Assembly: GCF_000817735.3 (NCBI RefSeq)
Contig: NZ_JTJC03000001.1
Span: 1,606,632 to 1,670,631, forward strand
Length of the DNA stretch: 64,000 nucleotides
Origin: Scytonema millei VB511283
GTDB lineage: Bacteria > Cyanobacteriota > Cyanobacteriia > Cyanobacteriales > Chroococcidiopsidaceae
Direction: 5' to 3'
A model generated the notes under the pieces. It worked only from the letters and a program-made list of their open reading frames with translations. It was not told where the DNA came from and made no database searches. This document shows positions 16,562 through 24,897 of the stretch, in pieces. The position numbers and the translations under genes are program-made. The stretch's first letter is position 1, and every line of letters begins with the position of its first letter.

Positions 16562-16759
16562 TGGCTCGTCTTTGCGTGACATTCTTCTTAAATCTTCACA
16601 AAACTCACCTGCATAATTTTCTTCCATACCGCTGATAAGTAGATAGCGGAGGAAACACGCTATGTCTAGGAGGTGAGACAACAAGCAGCGCGGTAGTGAT
16701 TTCAGAGGATTTTTCCTTGAAAATAAACATACCCCTGCTGGAAATCATACAAAACTGTT

Positions 16760-17476
16760 ATGGAAGAATTTGAGGTGAGTCTGCGTCAATTGGTCGTAGA
16801 AACTTGTCAGCAGAAGATCGGTAGTCTCGATCGCCAGCGAGGTTTAACTAGAATTGTCCGCTCGATTGCCAAGTCTGGCAAGCTGTGGAAAGAAAATACT
16901 CCCGATTACGAGGATGCCTTACAACAAACCTGGTTGTATTTCTGCCGTAACCTGTGTGAAGCTACGACAGGCGATCGCTACGATCCCAGTCGTAGTAGTG
17001 TCACGACTTGGTTAAATGCATATCTGCGGCGACGGTTGCAAGACCTATACCTGCAAAGAAAGACTACCAATAACTCGACAACTAGACAAGTCTATTCTGT
17101 TGACGAGCTGGGGAAAGATGCGATTGAAGCCTTGGAAGCTGCGCCCGATGTCCCACCAATTTTGGAAACGACACGAAAGTGGATTCAAACCGATCCTGAT
17201 GGCGACCTCCGCCGTACTTATATTCAAGGTTATCCAAAAGTGAATTGCCAAGTTTTATTGTTGCAAAGGCTGCCACCAGAGACAAGCTGGGAAGATTTGG
17301 CAGCGCAATACAAGCTGTCTGTTTCAACACTGAGTAGTTTCTATCGGCGACAATGCCTACCACGATTGCGTAAATTCGGCGAATCGCAAGGGTATTTAGA
17401 GGATACCTATCATGAATTATCAAGCACGAGAAAACGATCGCTCCCTTCCGTTACCAATTACTCAAGCCGCGAATAG
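16760..17476 (+). CDS. Sigma-70 family RNA polymerase sigma factor of the CHAT-CHASE2 operon
   Basis: The 238-residue protein has a region 2-like part (YEDALQQTWLYFCRNLCEAT ... VTTWLNAYLRRRLQDLYLQR, about 55-98). A variable linker follows, then a C-terminal helix-turn-helix resembling region 4 (TSWEDLAAQYKLSVSTLSSF, about 178-197). This type of divergent, ECF-like factor is repeatedly seen in cyanobacteria beside DUF1822 genes. It is the first gene of the operon and overlaps the DUF1822 gene by 65 bases, so the two are translationally linked. No classical membrane anti-sigma gene is next to it; the CHAT-CHASE2 protein may fill the regulatory role (inference). Confidence 0.82.
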   Translation: MEEFEVSLRQLVVETCQQKIGSLDRQRGLTRIVRSIAKSGKLWKENTPDYEDALQQTWLYFCRNLCEATTGDRYDPSRSSVTTWLNAYLRRRLQDLYLQRKTTNNSTTRQVYSVDELGKDAIEALEAAPDVPPILETTRKWIQTDPDGDLRRTYIQGYPKVNCQVLLLQRLPPETSWEDLAAQYKLSVSTLSSFYRRQCLPRLRKFGESQGYLEDTYHELSSTRKRSLPSVTNYSSRE

Positions 17477-18404
17477 CATTGCTTGGCAGTTCAGCCAGCA
17501 GCAGCCAACATCACAAAAAGCAGAGCAAGTGCGACTGAATACTTTGGCTGTGTGTGCCGTCCGCGATTATTTGGAAATGATGGGCGTTCCGGTGAGTTGG
17601 AGTGGGTGCGATAGTTGGAATCCTTTCATGCGTGCGTGTGTGGATGCAGCAGACTTGGAGGTATTGGGTTTGGGTCGCTTGGAATGTCGGGCGATCGCCA
17701 CTGATGCTTCTACCTGTTACGTGCCACCGGAGGTTTGGGAAGATCGGATCGGTTATGTTGTCGTGCGTTTGCATGAAGTAGAAAAACAGGTCGATATTTT
17801 GGGTTTTGTCCAGCAAGTTACCCAAGAACAGTTGACCGTTAATCAGTTGCGATCGCCGGAAGATCTATTGTCTCATTTGCAAGACTTAAGCGCGATCACT
17901 TCGTTAAGCTTCGCTAACGCGAATCCTCTCGCGAGTACGGTTAACTTGAGACAGTGGTTCCAAAATACGTTTGAACCAGGTTGGCAAACTGTCGTCTCGC
18001 TATTAAATCCAACCGAACAAAATTTAGCCTTTAGCTTTCGTAAAACAGAAGAACTGAGTACAAATGAAGTGAATCGCCCTGAAAATTTTGTCAGACGGGC
18101 AAAGTTAATCGACTTGGGAATGCAGCTAGCAGGTCATGCAGTCGCTTTGGTCATGGAACTGCGTCCTGCATCAGAGCAGAAAACCGATCTGATCGTACAA
18201 GTGCATCCGACGGGGAGAGAGACCTTTTTACCACCGTCATTACAGCTAATCGTTTTGGATGAATCTGGTTCAGTTTTCTTAGAAGCTAAAGCCAGACGCG
18301 CCGATAATTACATTCAGTTGCAATTTAGCGGTACTACCGGAGAAAGATTTAGCGTTAAAGTAGCTCTGGGGGATGTTGGCATCACCGAACACTTTATTAT
18401 TTGA
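17412..18404 (+). CDS. DUF1822 family protein
   Basis: The 330-residue protein opens RSLPLPITQAANSIAWQFSQ and has a central segment LEVLGLGRLECRAI ... RIGYVVVRLHEVEKQVDILGF, typical of DUF1822. This cyanobacterial family has no known function. No signal peptide or membrane segment is visible, so it is probably cytoplasmic. The start lies inside the sigma gene (65-base overlap) and the next gene follows 52 bases after the stop. A likely role is linking the CHAT-CHASE2 protein to the sigma factor, as a substrate or anti-sigma-like partner (inference from gene order only). Confidence 0.85.
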   Translation: MNYQARENDRSLPLPITQAANSIAWQFSQQQPTSQKAEQVRLNTLAVCAVRDYLEMMGVPVSWSGCDSWNPFMRACVDAADLEVLGLGRLECRAIATDASTCYVPPEVWEDRIGYVVVRLHEVEKQVDILGFVQQVTQEQLTVNQLRSPEDLLSHLQDLSAITSLSFANANPLASTVNLRQWFQNTFEPGWQTVVSLLNPTEQNLAFSFRKTEELSTNEVNRPENFVRRAKLIDLGMQLAGHAVALVMELRPASEQKTDLIVQVHPTGRETFLPPSLQLIVLDESGSVFLEAKARRADNYIQLQFSGTTGERFSVKVALGDVGITEHFII

Positions 18405-18456
18405 GTTACGACTTACGACTTACAACTGAAAATGACGTGCCTACAGGTGATATATC

Positions 18457-20835
18457 GTGGGTAAGTTAGTTGTCCTGAAGTTTGGCGAAGGTAGCTTTGA
18501 GCAGGGATTTCCTGTGACGCTACAAATTGGCGAGGATGGCGATCGCCCCGCTGTAGAACTTGCTGGCAGATTACCACCCCAGCCGGAAATTTCACAACTC
18601 TATAGAAAATGGCAATCGGCTTACTACAGCTTGGGTTTGCGATCGCGTCTGGAAGCCGCTGCCGTCCAAATCACGAATGTTTGTGTCTTAGAAGACTGTT
18701 ACAATGCCGCAGAATCCCTCAGTCGCAGTTTAAACAATTGGCTTTCTTCCCCATCATTTCTCCCTTTGAGAGATAAGTTTTTAGAAAAATTAATGCCTGC
18801 GGATGCAATTCGCGTCATTTTGCAAACTGAAGATTTACTACTACAGCGGCTACCCTGGCATCGCTGCGATCTATTCGCTCGCTATCCTCAAGCAGAAATT
18901 GCCCTGAGTACCCCCGCTTACGAAGAAATTGCGCTGAAAACGACATCCTCTCGCACTCAAATCAGAATTTTAGCGATTTTAGGTAGTAGTGCCGGAATTG
19001 ACATTCAAGCAGACCGTAATCTGCTCGAAAGCTTGCCAGGAGCAGATGTCAAGTTTTTGGTCGAGCCGTCACGTCAAGAGTTAGACCGTCAGTTATGGTC
19101 TACCCAAGGATGGGATATTTTATTTTTTGCCGGACATAGTGCCAGTCAAACAACTGCCTCTCAGAATGAAGTGACAGGCAGAATTTATTTAAATCAAACC
19201 GAAAGTTTAACTATTGCCGATCTCAAACACGCTTTACAAACTGCGGTAGAAAATGGTTTGAGCGTAGCCATTTTTAACTCTTGCGATGGCTTGGGATTGG
19301 CGCGGGACTTGGCAAGTCTGCACATTCCCCAAGTAGTATTCATGCGCGAACCCGTACCGGATCGCGTGGCGCAAGAATTTTTGAAGAGTTTTCTCCAGGC
19401 TTTTGCTGGGGGAAAGTCTCTCTATTTGTCGGTACGAGAGGCAAGGGAAAGACTCCAGGGATGGGAAAGCGAATATCCTGCTGCTAGCTGGCTACCAGTC
19501 ATTTATCAAAATCTTGCCGAAATTCCTCCGACTTGGCAACAGTGGATGCAACGTCTACGTCCACCACGACAACGGCTTTCTCTGCGGCGCGTCTTCTTCA
19601 CCAGCACCATTGTCACGGCGGCGGTGGTAGGAATGCGGTTATTGGGTTTATTCCAACCTATAGAATTGCAAGCTTTCGACCAATTGATGCGGCTGCGTCC
19701 TATAGAAAAAGCCGATCCGCGTCTGTTAATTGTGACGGTGACTGAGGAAGATTTGCAGCTGCCAGAACAGAAACACAGAAAAGGATCTCTATCAGATTTG
19801 GCACTGGAAAAACTGTTGCAAAAACTAGAACAATTACACCCGCAAGTGATCGGTTTGGATATCTATCGCGATTTTCCAGTCGAGAAATTACCGAGTCTGA
19901 AGTCAAGGCTGCAAAATAGCGATCGCCTTTTTGCTATCTGTAAAGTCAGCGATCCAGAATTCGATCCGCGTGGCGTTCAACCCCCGCCAGAAGTCGCGCC
20001 AGAACGGATAGGTTTTAGCGATGTCATTGCCGATCCAGATGACAATATCGTGCGCCGCCATTTGCTCAATTTCGAGCCGCCACTGACATCCCGTTGTAGT
20101 GCTAATACCGCGCTCAGTTTTCAACTCGCCCATCAATATTTGGCAGCGAAAGGGATGGAAACTCGATTCACGCCTAGTGGTAACTTACAACTCGGTAACG
20201 TGGTTTTTCCGCGCTTGCAACCTTTCCACACGGGCGGCTATCAACGAATCGACACCAAAGGCTATCAACTGTTGCTCAATTACCGTCCCTTCGACTCTGT
20301 AGATGATATTGCCGTAGCAGTGACGCTAGGAGATCTACTGAGCGATCGCATTCCGCCCAATCTTGCCCGTACCCTCAACAACCGGATTGTACTGATCGGT
20401 CTAGCGGCTCCTAGTACTGGTGATGCGTGGTCTACTCCCTACAGCATCGGTAGACAGGGGCTACAAAAACAAATTCCGGGTATTTATTTACAAGCTCAGA
20501 TGGTGAGTCAACTCCTCAGTGCTGTTTTGGACGGACGAACACCACTGTGGGTTTTGCCTCTCTGGGGCGAAATTACCTGGATTTGGGCTTGGTCGTTGGT
20601 GGGAGGAGTTGTTGTTTGGTGCTGGCGTTCTCCCGTGCGATTGGGACTGAGTGTTTGCTTGACAATTGCAGCTCTTTATGGATCGAGTTGGATATTACTA
20701 CTTCAAGGTGGCTGGCTGCCTTTAGTCCCTGCGGCTTTGGCTTTAGTCGTGACGGGAGGCAGAATTGCGGTCGTTAAGCGTTCTTTGCCCGATAGCAGCA
20801 ATCTACCGCTGAAACCTACACTAAAGATAGATTGA
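18457..20835 (+). CDS. CHAT domain protease fused to a CHASE2 sensor domain
   Basis: The 792-residue membrane protein starts at GTG with LVVLKFGEGSFEQGFPVTLQ. The N-terminal half (to about 360) is a CHAT caspase-like domain: His227 in FFAGHSAS and Cys276 in FNSCDG form the expected dyad. A transmembrane helix follows (STIVTAAVVGMRLLGLF, about 380-396). A CHASE2 domain (about 400-690, FDQLMRLRP ... VIGLDIYRDFP ... NRIVLIG) lies outside the inner membrane. Three more helices at 698-770 return the chain to the membrane. The layout suggests an extracytoplasmic signal switching a cytoplasmic peptidase. It is nine bases from the DUF928 gene. Confidence 0.92.
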   Translation: MGKLVVLKFGEGSFEQGFPVTLQIGEDGDRPAVELAGRLPPQPEISQLYRKWQSAYYSLGLRSRLEAAAVQITNVCVLEDCYNAAESLSRSLNNWLSSPSFLPLRDKFLEKLMPADAIRVILQTEDLLLQRLPWHRCDLFARYPQAEIALSTPAYEEIALKTTSSRTQIRILAILGSSAGIDIQADRNLLESLPGADVKFLVEPSRQELDRQLWSTQGWDILFFAGHSASQTTASQNEVTGRIYLNQTESLTIADLKHALQTAVENGLSVAIFNSCDGLGLARDLASLHIPQVVFMREPVPDRVAQEFLKSFLQAFAGGKSLYLSVREARERLQGWESEYPAASWLPVIYQNLAEIPPTWQQWMQRLRPPRQRLSLRRVFFTSTIVTAAVVGMRLLGLFQPIELQAFDQLMRLRPIEKADPRLLIVTVTEEDLQLPEQKHRKGSLSDLALEKLLQKLEQLHPQVIGLDIYRDFPVEKLPSLKSRLQNSDRLFAICKVSDPEFDPRGVQPPPEVAPERIGFSDVIADPDDNIVRRHLLNFEPPLTSRCSANTALSFQLAHQYLAAKGMETRFTPSGNLQLGNVVFPRLQPFHTGGYQRIDTKGYQLLLNYRPFDSVDDIAVAVTLGDLLSDRIPPNLARTLNNRIVLIGLAAPSTGDAWSTPYSIGRQGLQKQIPGIYLQAQMVSQLLSAVLDGRTPLWVLPLWGEITWIWAWSLVGGVVVWCWRSPVRLGLSVCLTIAALYGSSWILLLQGGWLPLVPAALALVVTGGRIAVVKRSLPDSSNLPLKPTLKID

Positions 20836-20844
20836 GGTGAGATA

Positions 20845-21633
20845 ATGCACAAGCTTGCAGCCACAGCAGCGATCGCCTTCACACTGCTCGTACCCACAGC
20901 AGCGATCGCTACCCACAATAACAGTCAAAATAACACTCACCAGCAAGTCAGCGCTCAACCCCGTTACACGCCGCCGCCCTTTCCCGCCTCCGGTACTCCC
21001 ACCGGACGAACTAGAGGCGCAGCCGGACGAGGAAGAGACTGCGGCTTCAAGTTGCCGCTAACGGCGCTAGCACCTGCCGTAGAAAGGACTGTAGGCACGG
21101 GTAAAGCAACCTATGTTTGGGGACAGACGATCGCCGAATATCCCACTTTCTGGTTTTACATTCCCGCTGCCAGCCCTTCACTCCGTTCTGTAGAATTTGT
21201 CCTGCAAGACGATCTCGATAACGATGTCTATCGTTCTGCTGTCGAACTGCCAGCCAAACCAGGAATCATCGGCGTGCGTTTACCATCTACCCAACCACCA
21301 CTCACACTGGATCGGAACTATCACTGGTTTTTGAAAACAGAAATAGCAGCCAGTTGCGATCGCCAAGATTCCACTATTGCGATTAAAGATTCGGTTGAAG
21401 GATGGGTACAGCGCGTATCGCCAACTGCCACGATGCGATCGCAACTCAAAACAGCCACACCCGAACAAAAACTCGATCTCTACGCTCAACAAGGTTTATG
21501 GTACGACGCGATCGCCACCATAGCCGAACAGCGATTACAACAGCCGGACAATGCCTCTCTCAAAGCAAATTGGAACAGGCTTTTACAATCTGCCAATTTG
21601 AGCGATGTGTCATCTCAGCCACTTTTGCCATGA
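20845..21633 (+). CDS. DUF928 domain protein, predicted exported
   Basis: The 262-residue protein has a signal peptide (MHKLAATAAIAFTLLVPTAA, cleavage near AIA-TH). The DUF928 core is GRTRGAAGRGRDCGFKLPLT ... EYPTFWFYIPAASP ... YRSAVELPAKPGIIGVRLP ... LTLDRNYHWFLKTEI. It probably works in the periplasm, where the CHASE2 domain of the upstream gene also lies, so a ligand-presenting or partner role is possible (inference). The ribosome site is GAGGTGAG, and the stop overlaps the next start as ATGA. Confidence 0.85.
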   Translation: MHKLAATAAIAFTLLVPTAAIATHNNSQNNTHQQVSAQPRYTPPPFPASGTPTGRTRGAAGRGRDCGFKLPLTALAPAVERTVGTGKATYVWGQTIAEYPTFWFYIPAASPSLRSVEFVLQDDLDNDVYRSAVELPAKPGIIGVRLPSTQPPLTLDRNYHWFLKTEIAASCDRQDSTIAIKDSVEGWVQRVSPTATMRSQLKTATPEQKLDLYAQQGLWYDAIATIAEQRLQQPDNASLKANWNRLLQSANLSDVSSQPLLP

Positions 21634-22439
21634 CAACTGAAATGGGACAAGAAATTTTTCAGGTCGATGCTTTTACAAATAAACCTTTTGCAGGTAATCC
21701 TGCTGGTGTTTGCGTTCTGCCGCAACCGAGAGATGACGGTTGGATGCAAAATGTCGCTCAGGAGATGAATTTATCGGAGACGGCTTTTTTACTCCGGCAA
21801 GACGATGGTAGCTACAATTTGCGGTGGTTTACCCCTGCTACAGAAGTTCCTCTCTGCGGTCATGCTACCCTAGCTAGCGCTCATGTACTGTGGAAACAGG
21901 GTTATTTACAACCAGAGGAAACAGCTCGGTTTCACACTCTCAGTGGCTTGCTGACGGCAAAACAGGCAGGAGAATGGATCGAATTAGACTTCCCCATGCA
22001 AGTTCCTGCTGAATCGGAAATACCTACCAAGCTGATTCAAGCTTTGGGAACCAAACCAAAATATGTAGGCGAGACGCATAGAAATTATTTGGTAGAGTTA
22101 GATTCAGAGGAGATTGTCAGCAATCTTCAGCCAGATTTTAGTTTACTGAAAACCTTACCCGTGCAAGGTGTAATCGTCACCAGCAAAGGGACAAACTCAG
22201 AGTATGATTTTGTCTCTCGCTACTTTGCCCCTAATGTCGGCATTGATGAAGATCCGGTGACGGGTTCGGCGCACTGCTGTCTTGCACCCTACTGGCGCGA
22301 TCGCTTGGGGAAAGATAATTTTCTCGCCTATCAAGCTTCTGCTAGGGGTGGAGTTATTAAAGTTAGTTGTCAAGGCGATCGCGTTTTATTAGAAGGACAA
22401 GCTGTTCTCGTTTTACGCGGTGAATTGCTTGATGGCTGA
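21630..22439 (+). CDS. PhzF family phenazine biosynthesis-like isomerase
   Basis: The 269-residue protein has the PhzF opening FQVDAFTNKPFAGNPAGVC, the active-site glutamate in MNLSETAFLL, PLCGHATLASAH, and the C-terminal EDPVTGSAHCCLAPYW. PhzF proteins catalyse isomerisation of small acids; the actual substrate here is unknown. The start ATG overlaps the DUF928 stop by four bases, so it is likely read from the same transcript. Whether it belongs functionally to the sigma/CHAT-CHASE2 group or merely follows it is open. Confidence 0.9.
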   Translation: MTTEMGQEIFQVDAFTNKPFAGNPAGVCVLPQPRDDGWMQNVAQEMNLSETAFLLRQDDGSYNLRWFTPATEVPLCGHATLASAHVLWKQGYLQPEETARFHTLSGLLTAKQAGEWIELDFPMQVPAESEIPTKLIQALGTKPKYVGETHRNYLVELDSEEIVSNLQPDFSLLKTLPVQGVIVTSKGTNSEYDFVSRYFAPNVGIDEDPVTGSAHCCLAPYWRDRLGKDNFLAYQASARGGVIKVSCQGDRVLLEGQAVLVLRGELLDG

Positions 22440-22561: not shown

Positions 22562-22903
22562 CTAGGAAACTTCTAAAAATGCCAGTTCAAACTCTTTACC
22601 CTGTCGTACCTCACAATACGGTTGATGGCATTCGGGACATTCGTAGAGTAAATCGGTGGGATGAAATTCAGTAGTGCAATTGGTGCAGTAACAAACGACT
22701 GGTACGGACTCCACCTGAAGTCTGGCATCTTCAGCTATTGTCTCCTTTTTCACTACATCAAACGCCAGTCGTAAAGACTCTGGTACTACCCCAGATGCCT
22801 CACCGACTCGCATTTGTAACAGGCGAATATGGCTCGCGCCTTCATGTTTTGCACGTTCTACAGCAGTTGCGAGAACGTTTTGCATCATTCCAACTTCATG
22901 CAT
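22562..22903 (-). CDS. hypA: Hydrogenase nickel incorporation protein HypA
   Basis: It is a nickel chaperone that, with HypB, delivers Ni to the large subunit of NiFe hydrogenase. The 113 residues start MHEVGMM; His2 is the nickel ligand. The zinc site is C-x2-C (YCTNC) and C-x2-C (YECPECHQPYC) about 15 residues apart. The start overlaps the end of the hydrogenase protease gene by 19 bases, so the two are translationally coupled within the hox cluster. Confidence 0.95.
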   Translation of the reverse strand: MHEVGMMQNVLATAVERAKHEGASHIRLLQMRVGEASGVVPESLRLAFDVVKKETIAEDARLQVESVPVVCYCTNCTTEFHPTDLLYECPECHQPYCEVRQGKEFELAFLEVS

Positions 22904-23361
22904 AGTTCTACCTTGCCTAATTTCATCAAATGGTAAATTTGTTCCAGCGCTACCTGCATACCTCGTTCAGCAATGGGTGAAAGGCGATCGCCTAATTCAA
23001 AATTCGTTCCTGGTATCGTTACCCACCAAGCATTCGGAACTCGATTGTAAAGCGCTTGCGTCAGGGCTAGTAGCGATCGCGGATCGCCTGTATGTCCGCC
23101 GATCGCAGTAGAATTGGTAGGTGCGAGCGGTTGTACTCGCACGTCGCAGACACTTGCAAAACAGGCATCGATAAAAATTGCTAGCTCGGCTGTTGCTAGA
23201 AATGATGCTAGTTCGGGTGTGAGTTGATGGACGCAGAGCGATGTGACATGCGGTAATTTCTCAGATGCGATCGCATGAGCTACTTTTTGCCCCACAGCAT
23301 CATCGCTACGTAAGTCATTACCGTAGCCAATGACCAAGACAGTTTTTGAGTTCTCGCTCAT
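22885..23361 (-). CDS. hoxW: Hydrogenase maturation protease (HoxW type)
   Basis: This endopeptidase trims the C-terminus of the NiFe hydrogenase large subunit after metal insertion. The 158-residue protein begins VLVIGYGNDLRSDDAVG, with the metal-binding Glu/Asp segment typical of the HycI/HoxW family. It also has the central FIDACF and GGHTGDPRSLLAL. It follows hoxH by 84 bases and overlaps hypA, so HoxH is its likely substrate. Confidence 0.88.
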   Translation of the reverse strand: MSENSKTVLVIGYGNDLRSDDAVGQKVAHAIASEKLPHVTSLCVHQLTPELASFLATAELAIFIDACFASVCDVRVQPLAPTNSTAIGGHTGDPRSLLALTQALYNRVPNAWWVTIPGTNFELGDRLSPIAERGMQVALEQIYHLMKLGKVELCMKLE

Positions 23362-23445
23362 GTTATTCTCTTAGCTGACTCTATCTTGAAGCTATGAGGA
23401 AACATTGAGGAATTTGTGAGGTATGGCAGATTCACCGAAAAACTT

Positions 23446-24897
23446 CTAATTTCGCCAAACTTCGTTAACAATATTTCCATCTGTTCCGACTAATTGAACG
23501 TGCAATGGCATTTGTCCGGCTGCATGAGTCGAGCAACTCAAGCAAGGATCGAAAGCCCGAATTCCAGCTTCCACTCGATTCAACATTCCTTCAGGAATTT
23601 CCGTACCATGAATAAAATGTCGGGCAATTTGAGCCACAGTGCGATTCATTGCGAGATTATTTTGACCAGTAGCAATAATTAAATTTACTTGCTGCATTAA
23701 GCCGTTTTCATCAACTTTGTAGTGATGAAATAAAGTTCCGCGTGGTGCTTCACTACAGCCAACTCCTTCTAATTGGTTAATTCCAGCTTCGGCACGGATT
23801 TTAGTAGATAACACCTGTGGATCGTCTAGTAATAATTCAATCTGCTCGATTGATGCCAAAATTTCAATCAGTCGGGCATAGTGGTAAAAGAAGGATGAGA
23901 GTACAGTACCACCACCGCGATCGCGAAATTCGCTTAATTCTCGATCGGCGATCGCCGTGCCAATGCGAGTACAAATATTTAACCTTGCTAAAGGTCCAAC
24001 TCGATAAATGCCACTATCTAAACGACAGCGATCTTTTCGATCGGGATATCCTAAAGGACGATAGTAGGGGAACTTAAGATAAGTATAAGATTCAACTGCT
24101 TCACCAATAAATTCTTGATAGCGAGTTGGATCGAGTTTGTCTGCAATAATGTTGCCAGCGCTATCGACAAACCGAATACATCCATCGTAGTTTTCCCACA
24201 AACCATCAGATGTGACCAAACCCATAAATAAACTGGGAAAATTACCAAAAGTTTGAGCTTCCCGTTCGTAGTCCTGAAGCAAACGCTTAAATCTACCAAG
24301 CGCATCTAAAATTGTGGTTTTAGCTTCGGGAATGCGACTTTGAATCTGCGTGCGTCCTGCTTGGGATAATGGTTCTCGCACGCCACCTGGAACTGCCCAC
24401 GATGGATGAATTTTACGTCCGCCTAGTATTTCTATAATTTCTTGTCCGAATTGCCGCAATCGAATTCCACCTCTGGCTAATTCTGGTTGAGCGGCAATTA
24501 ACCCAAAAACGTTGCGCTGTTGGGGATCGCTATCCATGCCTAATAGTAAATCTGGGGCGCTGAGATGGAAAAAACTCAGGGCATGGGATTGGATGATTTG
24601 CCCTAAATTCATCAACCGACGCAATTTAGTCGCGGCGGCGGGAATAGTGACAGAAAGGATGCGATCGCCTGCTTTAGCAGAAGCTAGCAAGTGACTCACT
24701 GGGCAAATTCCACAAATTCGCGCCGTAATTCCTGGCATTTCCCACAAAGGACGACCTTCACAGAATTTCTCAAACCCCCGAAATTCTGTGACGTGGAACC
24801 GAGCATCGGTCACTTCTCCGGCATCATCTAAGTAGATGGTAATTTTAGCGTGACCTTCAAGCCGCGTGACTGGATCGATGACAATTCGCTGGGACAT
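23446..24897 (-). CDS. hoxH: NiFe hydrogenase large subunit HoxH
   Basis: This is the catalytic subunit of the bidirectional hydrogenase. The active-site cysteines occur as [10 protein letters not shown] near the N-terminus and DPCLSCSTH near the C-terminus. About 25 residues after STH ([20 protein letters not shown] ...) form the peptide that the maturation protease removes. The 483-residue length fits. hoxY lies upstream on the same strand, separated by a 116-base spacer that holds a family D repeat. hoxE, hoxF and hoxU are not in the window. Confidence 0.96.

Follow-up and report, generated by a model that had tools for sequence, protein, structure and literature searches.

A 64,000-nucleotide (nt) stretch of the Scytonema millei VB511283 genome (NZ_JTJC03000001.1; hereafter the window, whose positions serve as coordinates) carries four consecutive genes on one strand, encoding a sigma factor of the extracytoplasmic function (ECF) type, a DUF1822 protein, a membrane protein that joins a CHAT peptidase domain to a CHASE2 sensor domain, and an exported DUF928 protein. 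Comparison across cyanobacterial genomes shows that these genes form a conserved unit in which sigma and DUF1822 are the most tightly coupled pair. A sequence-only reading of the window had proposed that they make up a circuit in which an outside signal switches an inside peptidase acting on a DUF1822-held sigma factor. This reading is partly supported, the association being strong and its direction and chemistry unproven, and we give protease-gated release of the sigma factor through DUF1822 about an even chance of being correct. The four-gene arrangement itself is confirmed as described, with an overlap of 65 nt between the sigma and DUF1822 genes followed by gaps of 52 nt and 9 nt. The features of the operon, with lengths in amino acids (aa), are as follows.

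16760..17476, + strand: ECF-like sigma factor with regions 2 and 4, 238 aa, ATG start (structure model; sub-threshold Pfam match)
17412..18404, + strand: DUF1822 protein, 330 aa, putative binder of sigma and target of the protease (Pfam)
18457..20835, + strand: N-terminal domain (likely EACC2), CHAT, membrane helix, CHASE2 and C-terminal membrane helices, 792 aa, GTG start (Pfam, dyad, hydropathy)
20845..21633, + strand: exported DUF928 protein, 262 aa, proposed periplasmic CHASE2 partner (Pfam, hydrophobic N-terminus)
16610..16649, + strand: candidate promoter-like cis element of presumed function, TGCATAATTTT ... TGATAAGTAGATAGCGG, 5' of the sigma gene (relaxed motif)

Orthologous loci were collected by searching contigs with the DUF1822 protein, and the best 80 of 186 confirmed matches, from cyanobacteria of many genera, make up a set of 81 loci together with the window. 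A gene matching the CHAT-CHASE2 profile lies within 600 nt after DUF1822 in all 81 loci, and 67 have DUF928 further downstream, 64 of them no more than 800 nt from the CHAT gene; of the 14 loci without DUF928, 7 have less than 4.5 kb of sequence left. Together with a Pfam-based sample described below, these loci bear out the recurrent linkage that had been set beforehand as a test of the circuit. Conservation of the catalytic dyad among orthologues had been set as another test, and the protease keeps it: all 82 CHAT-bearing proteins in the alignment have His227 and Cys276, the pair noticed in the window protein (three further rows hold CHASE2 proteins that lack CHAT; of the 95 profile matches, 10 were left out for being under 650 aa long). 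In the window protein the CHAT domain scores 55 bits in Pfam (cut-off 24) at residues 197-335 and CHASE2 scores 200.7 bits (cut-off 26.3) at residues 386-718, with one membrane helix predicted by hydropathy before CHASE2, at about 379-397, and more near the C-terminus. Residues 1-175 form a conserved domain whose own profile recurs in 31 of the 63 loci of the Pfam-based sample; by its position it is likely the EACC2 domain of PMC8195603. The profile of the CHAT protein matched none of the solved structures, and it reaches just 22.4 of the 1200 bits required by the HetF equivalog (NCBIfam NF045509), over residues 191-350 only, which places it outside the HetF family. At L188, L195, L206, L024 and L074 the CHAT or CHASE2 genes are apparently split or truncated, through either decay or assembly errors.

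The Pfam-based sample gives a wider view of what surrounds DUF1822. The domain was sought in 59 genomes of the phylum, 47 of which have a match, and 63 genes were retained, comprising 60 regions and 3 genes of the window genome; G025 has two weak matches, of which one was set aside, as were matches under the cut-off in G061 and G023. A sigma or sigma-like gene stands directly upstream of DUF1822 in 55 of the 63 (a short ECF-like one in 31, one of about 450 aa in 13 and one of about 400 aa in 11), a count that is not independent for the two long classes, which were defined from genes upstream of DUF1822. The search that gave the 12 detached sigma orthologues described below was unbiased by DUF1822; 30 of its 41 match rows were examined as loci, and the 18 loci beyond those 12 (16 distinct sigma paralogues) all have DUF1822 beside sigma. 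Behind DUF1822, 31 loci have an EACC2-type CHAT gene (20 with CHASE2), 5 have another CHAT gene and 27 have no CHAT; among these 27, L161, L170 and L190 have a trypsin-like peptidase, L184 has a C14 caspase, and L181 has an M48 peptidase at a distance of 412 nt. A peptidase of one of these kinds (CHAT, trypsin, C14 or M48) follows the sigma-DUF1822 pair, or DUF1822 alone, in 41 of 63. Given that the position behind the pair can be filled by a caspase-like, trypsin-like, C14 or M48 peptidase, the best view of sigma-DUF1822 is that of an output cassette accepting different proteases. Pfam scans covered 18 of the 22 same-strand, non-EACC2 downstream genes (L165, L176, L202 and L213 were left out), and the L165 and L176 genes share 85% and 75% identity with that of L156, which was scanned. 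In the three trypsin-like cases (L161:6980-10447, L170:3078-6026 and L190:7029-8792) the peptidase follows a sigma-DUF1822 pair in place of a caspase-like protein, and two of these peptidases have tetratricopeptide repeats (TPRs).

Co-variation singles out the same pair. Across 38 loci with sigma, DUF1822 and EACC2-CHAT genes in a row, distances correlate at 0.92 between sigma and DUF1822 and at 0.84 in each remaining pair, and the partial correlation of sigma and DUF1822 given CHAT is 0.73 (bootstrap 0.51-0.82) as against 0.30 and 0.32 for the other pairs, although such values also rise from the shared ancestry of linked genes. The tightest co-variation therefore points to sigma and DUF1822 as a physical pair, suggestively rather than as proof.

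The identity of the first gene as a sigma factor, as originally read, is upheld by its structure model and falls short in Pfam, where Sigma70_r2 reaches 21.3 bits against a cut-off of 24 and the region 4 models of Sigma70 have no match in the 238-aa protein. An AlphaFold2 model from a 22-sequence alignment has a mean predicted local distance difference test score (pLDDT) of 82, and its best structural matches are sigma factors, including sigma-E, SigW and AlgU, with a best Foldseek E-value of only 0.012. The top match of the whole model, Escherichia coli sigma-E with RseA, has a Z-score of 10.4 and a root-mean-square deviation (rmsd) of 13.4 over 154 residues, an rmsd that is expected if the two sigma domains are differently placed; Z-scores of helical proteins are easily inflated. 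Region 2 alone aligns with 4lup over 86 residues (Z 9.3, rmsd 2.1); for region 4 the matches are fragments of SigR and SigL, with Z of about 6. On the strength of this model we take the protein as a two-domain ECF-like sigma factor. Its profile found nothing useful among solved structures, the best match being RpoE at E 0.6. As for the longer upstream proteins, the class of about 400 aa carries Pfam Sigma70_r4 (39.4 bits in L015; 11 of 28 upstream candidates match), and the class of about 450 aa is called sigma-like solely through its profile match to that class, at 99.5%; the profile of the short sigma (A1) gives no support for a link to either long class (0.5% and 2%). The third DUF1822 gene of the window genome (G000:C3:673391; L001, L015) lies behind a 404-aa sigma with clear Sigma70_r4, and in the stretch examined no protease gene follows it on the same strand.

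The DUF1822 protein scores 281.6 bits in Pfam against a cut-off of 25. A model built from 43 sequences (mean pLDDT 86) has two domains, an alpha+beta N-terminal domain at about 11-200 and a C-terminal beta-sandwich at about 225-330, separated by a poorly predicted linker at 202-222. The linker varies among sequences and is followed by a conserved RRAKLIDLG stretch, and it would be the simplest site for a protease to cut. The label of TPR protein given to DUF1822 in PMC8195603 finds no support in the model, which shows no TPRs. Fold searches matched mainly the C-terminal sandwich and barely covered the N-terminal domain; Csx30 is not among the matches listed, which are generic sandwich matches to the C-terminal domain only, and this absence does not speak against a relation to it. 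The DUF1822 profile gave nothing useful against solved structures (best charybdin, E 0.23), and the titles and abstract beginnings retrieved in a literature search included none on DUF1822 as an anti-sigma factor. The statement that no anti-sigma gene is seen in the operon is better replaced by one that DUF1822 occupies the anti-sigma position. Up to nine DUF1822 genes occur in one sampled genome.

A role for DUF928 as partner of CHASE2, proposed from the window alone, receives independent support from genome-wide counts. The window protein scores 194 bits in Pfam (cut-off 26) and has a hydrophobic, export-type N-terminal segment at residues 8-22. In 14 genomes, chosen from the 22 with a DUF1822 match that remain once the family f17 (below) is set aside, there are 80 DUF928 and 112 CHASE2 genes, and 48 of the DUF928 genes have a CHASE2 gene no more than 4 kb away, as against about 0.85 expected by density (2 of 82 DUF928 matches, one a fragment and one below cut-off, had been dropped before counting). 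In the Pfam-based sample, DUF928 is present in 13 of 20 EACC2-CHAT-CHASE2 loci and in 0 of 11 EACC2-CHAT loci without CHASE2 (one-sided Fisher test, 0.0004), as well as in 0 of 32 others, and another DUF928 gene in the window genome precedes a CHASE2-kinase gene (L014). DUF928 travels with CHASE2 also where CHASE2 carries a different output domain. These pairings imply that DUF928 follows the sensor and not the output, CHAT, which fits a periplasmic sensing partner. A DUF928-CHASE2 neighborhood in Nostoc punctiforme had been noted earlier (PMC5587647).

Cyanobacteria possess many caspase-like proteins, few of which have known substrates, and if DUF1822 were both substrate and sigma holder, a whole operon family would gain a testable function. 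In such a circuit, DUF928 and CHASE2 would come together in the periplasm to detect either a ligand or the state of the envelope; the signal would cross the membrane helices and activate the cytoplasmic CHAT peptidase, which would cut DUF1822, most simply in the linker at about 202-222. The cut would free the ECF-like sigma factor held by DUF1822, and the freed sigma could direct transcription, possibly of its own module via the two-block element described below. The position of DUF1822, its co-variation with sigma and the swapping of proteases behind it are consistent with DUF1822 as sigma holder and protease substrate. A bolder version is tentative and in our view rather unlikely: that the module is a one-protein receptor protease, in which a periplasmic DUF928-CHASE2 sensor directly switches a cytoplasmic caspase-like peptidase cutting DUF1822 as a new type of soluble anti-sigma factor, in place of the usual multi-step cascade of envelope proteolysis; that sigma-DUF1822 serves generally as an output that can be coupled to any of the four peptidase kinds (caspase-like, trypsin-like, C14 or M48); and that in many lineages the 3' end of the sigma gene carries the promoter of the genes that sigma controls. 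If DUF1822 is indeed substrate and sigma holder, the gating of sigma factors by proteases, familiar to date from envelope stress and one CRISPR type, would extend to a modular family with exchangeable proteases.

Several results weigh against release of sigma through DUF1822, in addition to the shared ancestry and the dependent counts already mentioned. Among the orthologous loci, sigma lies directly upstream of DUF1822 (within 300 nt) in only 22 of 81 and within 10 kb upstream in 35, counts from a hidden Markov model and open reading frame (ORF) step that missed at least one adjacent sigma (L025). A Pfam search of the DUF1822 protein at E up to 1 yields just DUF1822 and a sub-threshold IMPa_N_2 match, with none of the known anti-sigma families, and the protein has no hydropathy segment over the threshold for a membrane helix, unlike RseA-type anti-sigma factors; its fold matches are common immunoglobulin-like sandwiches only (best Z 7.8, rmsd 2.6, 81 residues). 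No peptidase gene was found behind DUF1822 in 22 of 63 loci, with 4 downstream genes unscanned, so DUF1822 cannot always need a neighboring protease; this concerns most of all the sigma class of about 400 aa, where 8 of 11 loci are without CHAT. Of the 20 CHASE2 loci, 7 lack DUF928 (in 2 of these the region or the contig ends within the locus), and so do 7 of the orthologous loci in which at least 4.5 kb of downstream sequence is available. Finally, the 63 genes leave out 25 genomes of one family (f17), each with a single weak DUF1822 match on a much longer protein, and the two of these loci that were inspected, L147 and L150, have frames continuing into long acidic tails and no sigma or CHAT gene visible in the short stretch examined. 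In favor of the circuit, all 12 genomes chosen for a sigma-less locus carry a sigma orthologue elsewhere, at 53-59% identity, with no DUF1822 within the 1.5 kb examined around it, and 3 of the 12 adjoin an exported TPR-CHAT gene.

Other explanations place the same genes in different roles. Kaur et al. (2021, eLife, PMC8195603) describe EACC2-caspases with variable C-termini including CHASE2 and with neighboring ECF sigma and DUF1822 genes, and propose autopeptidase activation with a transcriptional end step. Following their assignment of these parts to a conflict class, the module would be a conflict or cell-death system in which the variable C-terminus senses stimuli and triggers autoproteolysis of the EACC2-caspase, sigma being the transcriptional arm and DUF1822 a scaffold and not a substrate. 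We regard this as unlikely: the PADLOC-DB models contain no family matching any of the four window proteins at E up to 1, DUF1822 models without the TPRs that its published label implies, and sigma-DUF1822 also occurs with trypsin-like or C14 peptidases or with no peptidase found, which makes the caspase the variable part. DUF1822 might instead be a positive adaptor that tethers sigma to the receptor or aids RNA polymerase binding, CHAT then controlling turnover of sigma or of DUF928-CHASE2. Tight co-variation with sigma would fit any stable partner, and the 22 DUF1822 genes for which no protease neighbor was found also speak for an adaptor; such a role alone would leave unexplained that peptidases of unrelated classes are encoded next to the pair, and we find it quite unlikely. 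A single pathway would not be needed at all if sigma-DUF1822 and CHASE2-DUF928 were separate, co-inherited sensory units joined by operon shuffling, as DUF928 beside a CHASE2-kinase and sigma-DUF1822 without CHASE2 elsewhere might suggest, but the invariant dyad and the presence of DUF1822 and CHAT-CHASE2 together at every orthologous locus make this highly improbable.

Relative to described systems, the core association of EACC2-caspase, CHASE2, ECF sigma and DUF1822 is not new, having been in print since 2021 (PMC8195603). The window module shares with those systems a caspase-type domain with its dyad, a variable C-terminus, neighboring sigma and DUF1822 genes and probably the N-terminal alpha+beta domain. 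It differs in that DUF928 is absent from the main text of that paper, and the section on these systems neither proposes an anti-sigma or substrate role for DUF1822 nor describes trypsin-like or C14 peptidases replacing the EACC2-caspase behind sigma-DUF1822. If protease-gated release is right, the closest mechanistic analogues would be Csx29-Csx30-CASP-sigma and HetF-PatU3-HetZ. In the type III-E CRISPR system, the TPR-CHAT protein Csx29 cleaves Csx30, an inhibitor that acts on CASP-sigma by binding it (PMC10028731); there, as in the window, a CHAT protease, a sigma factor and a third protein are encoded together, the third protein being the cleaved sigma inhibitor. The trigger differs, being target RNA acting through Cas7-11 in the CRISPR system and a membrane sensor in the window module (PMC10028731). 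In Anabaena, the HetF protease reportedly cuts a protein that inhibits a transcriptional activator (PMC12288457). HetF resembles the window protein as a cyanobacterial protease, to which the CHAT part is weakly alike; unlike the window module, it acts at the divisome without a CHASE2 receptor, and its regulator is not a sigma factor (PMC12288457). The proposed scheme also resembles RseA-DegS-RseP in running from an envelope signal through a protease and an anti-sigma factor to an ECF sigma (PMC10028731), with the difference that protease and sensor would be one protein and the anti-sigma factor soluble. A further precedent, in cyanobacteria, is sigG, where the gene directly behind encodes a SigG binder in yeast two-hybrid assays (PMC2758279). 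New, as far as the literature was searched, are protease swapping behind a constant sigma-DUF1822, the DUF928-CHASE2 statistics, the co-variation, the two-domain DUF1822 model and the DNA element.

The DNA element, GC[AG]TAA-N15-18-GATA, was defined in the 81 orthologous loci. It lies within 250 nt before DUF1822 in 55 of the 59 loci without a called adjacent sigma and is present in all 22 with one, either before DUF1822 (19) or within 520 nt before sigma (4), one locus having both; the reversed pattern occurs 0 times in the same loci. In these 19 adjacent-sigma loci the element lies at the 3' end of the sigma gene, encoding RKFGESEGYL or close variants. A block in register with the last codons of a gene could be a mere scar, and a synonymous-site test favors constraint at the level of DNA. 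In 18 non-redundant adjacent sigma genes (of 21), codons of the RKF and EGY blocks use one codon in 89-100%, as against an average of 58% for 67 conserved body codons, none of which reaches 95%. In 20 non-redundant sigma genes (of 25) away from DUF1822, the R, F, E and G codons drop to 55-61%, K stays at 89% and Y is mostly replaced, while body codons average 75%. Since the block codons are near fixed beside DUF1822 and relaxed elsewhere, the DNA itself seems constrained where DUF1822 follows. In Nostocales the element persists as non-coding DNA before DUF1822 though sigma sits elsewhere, and in the window lineage a similar element precedes sigma in the window, L018, L021 and L025 (where the ORF step missed sigma). 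The window element scores 21.9 bits with a matrix from the DUF1822 upstream regions of other genomes, the maximum of 1040 shuffles being 10.6. The element is likely a promoter or operator of the DUF1822-CHAT-DUF928 unit.

The strict pattern has a single exact match in the window genome, at the four-gene operon. It is not confined to the module, with a match in 8 of 12 genomes searched, some of these matches (e.g. in G001, G002, G003, G017 and G041) being outside the module or uninspected. An autoregulatory ECF promoter before DUF1822 in Nostocales was considered and rejected: a matrix from 17 non-redundant sites exceeds the 99% shuffle level before just 2 of 26 adjacent sigma genes, those of the window (21.9) and L018 (0.6), and before none of the 26 that are not adjacent (14 classed as "apart" and 12 as "detached"). 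Scans for sigma-70-type promoters and for terminators performed no better than shuffles.

Some further arrangements accompany the module. Directly after it, a PhzF-like gene at window 21630-22439 has an in-frame ATG overlapping the DUF928 stop (ATGA); it was not found as part of the unit in the other 80 orthologous loci. Of the other orthologous loci, L018 and L021 alone have an FrhB-like gene, which precedes sigma by about 7.6 kb. In L147-L155, from one family with genomes of about 2 Mb, frames of 935-1313 aa each carry a single weak match to DUF1822, in most cases to its N-terminal portion. In the Nostocales loci L060, L071, L079, L083, L085, L086 and L087, a TPR-CHAT-like protein of about 900 aa is encoded between sigma and DUF1822; this protein has a member in 23 loci, and one that was inspected has an export-type N-terminus. 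In L050, L055, L057, L058 and L072, a copy of the module with its four genes on one strand has beside it, in back-to-back orientation, another copy that has diverged and is without an adjacent sigma. On the minus strand of the window, at 22562-24897, lie three genes that we take to encode proteins of the hydrogenase maturation (HypA), maturation protease and large-subunit kinds.

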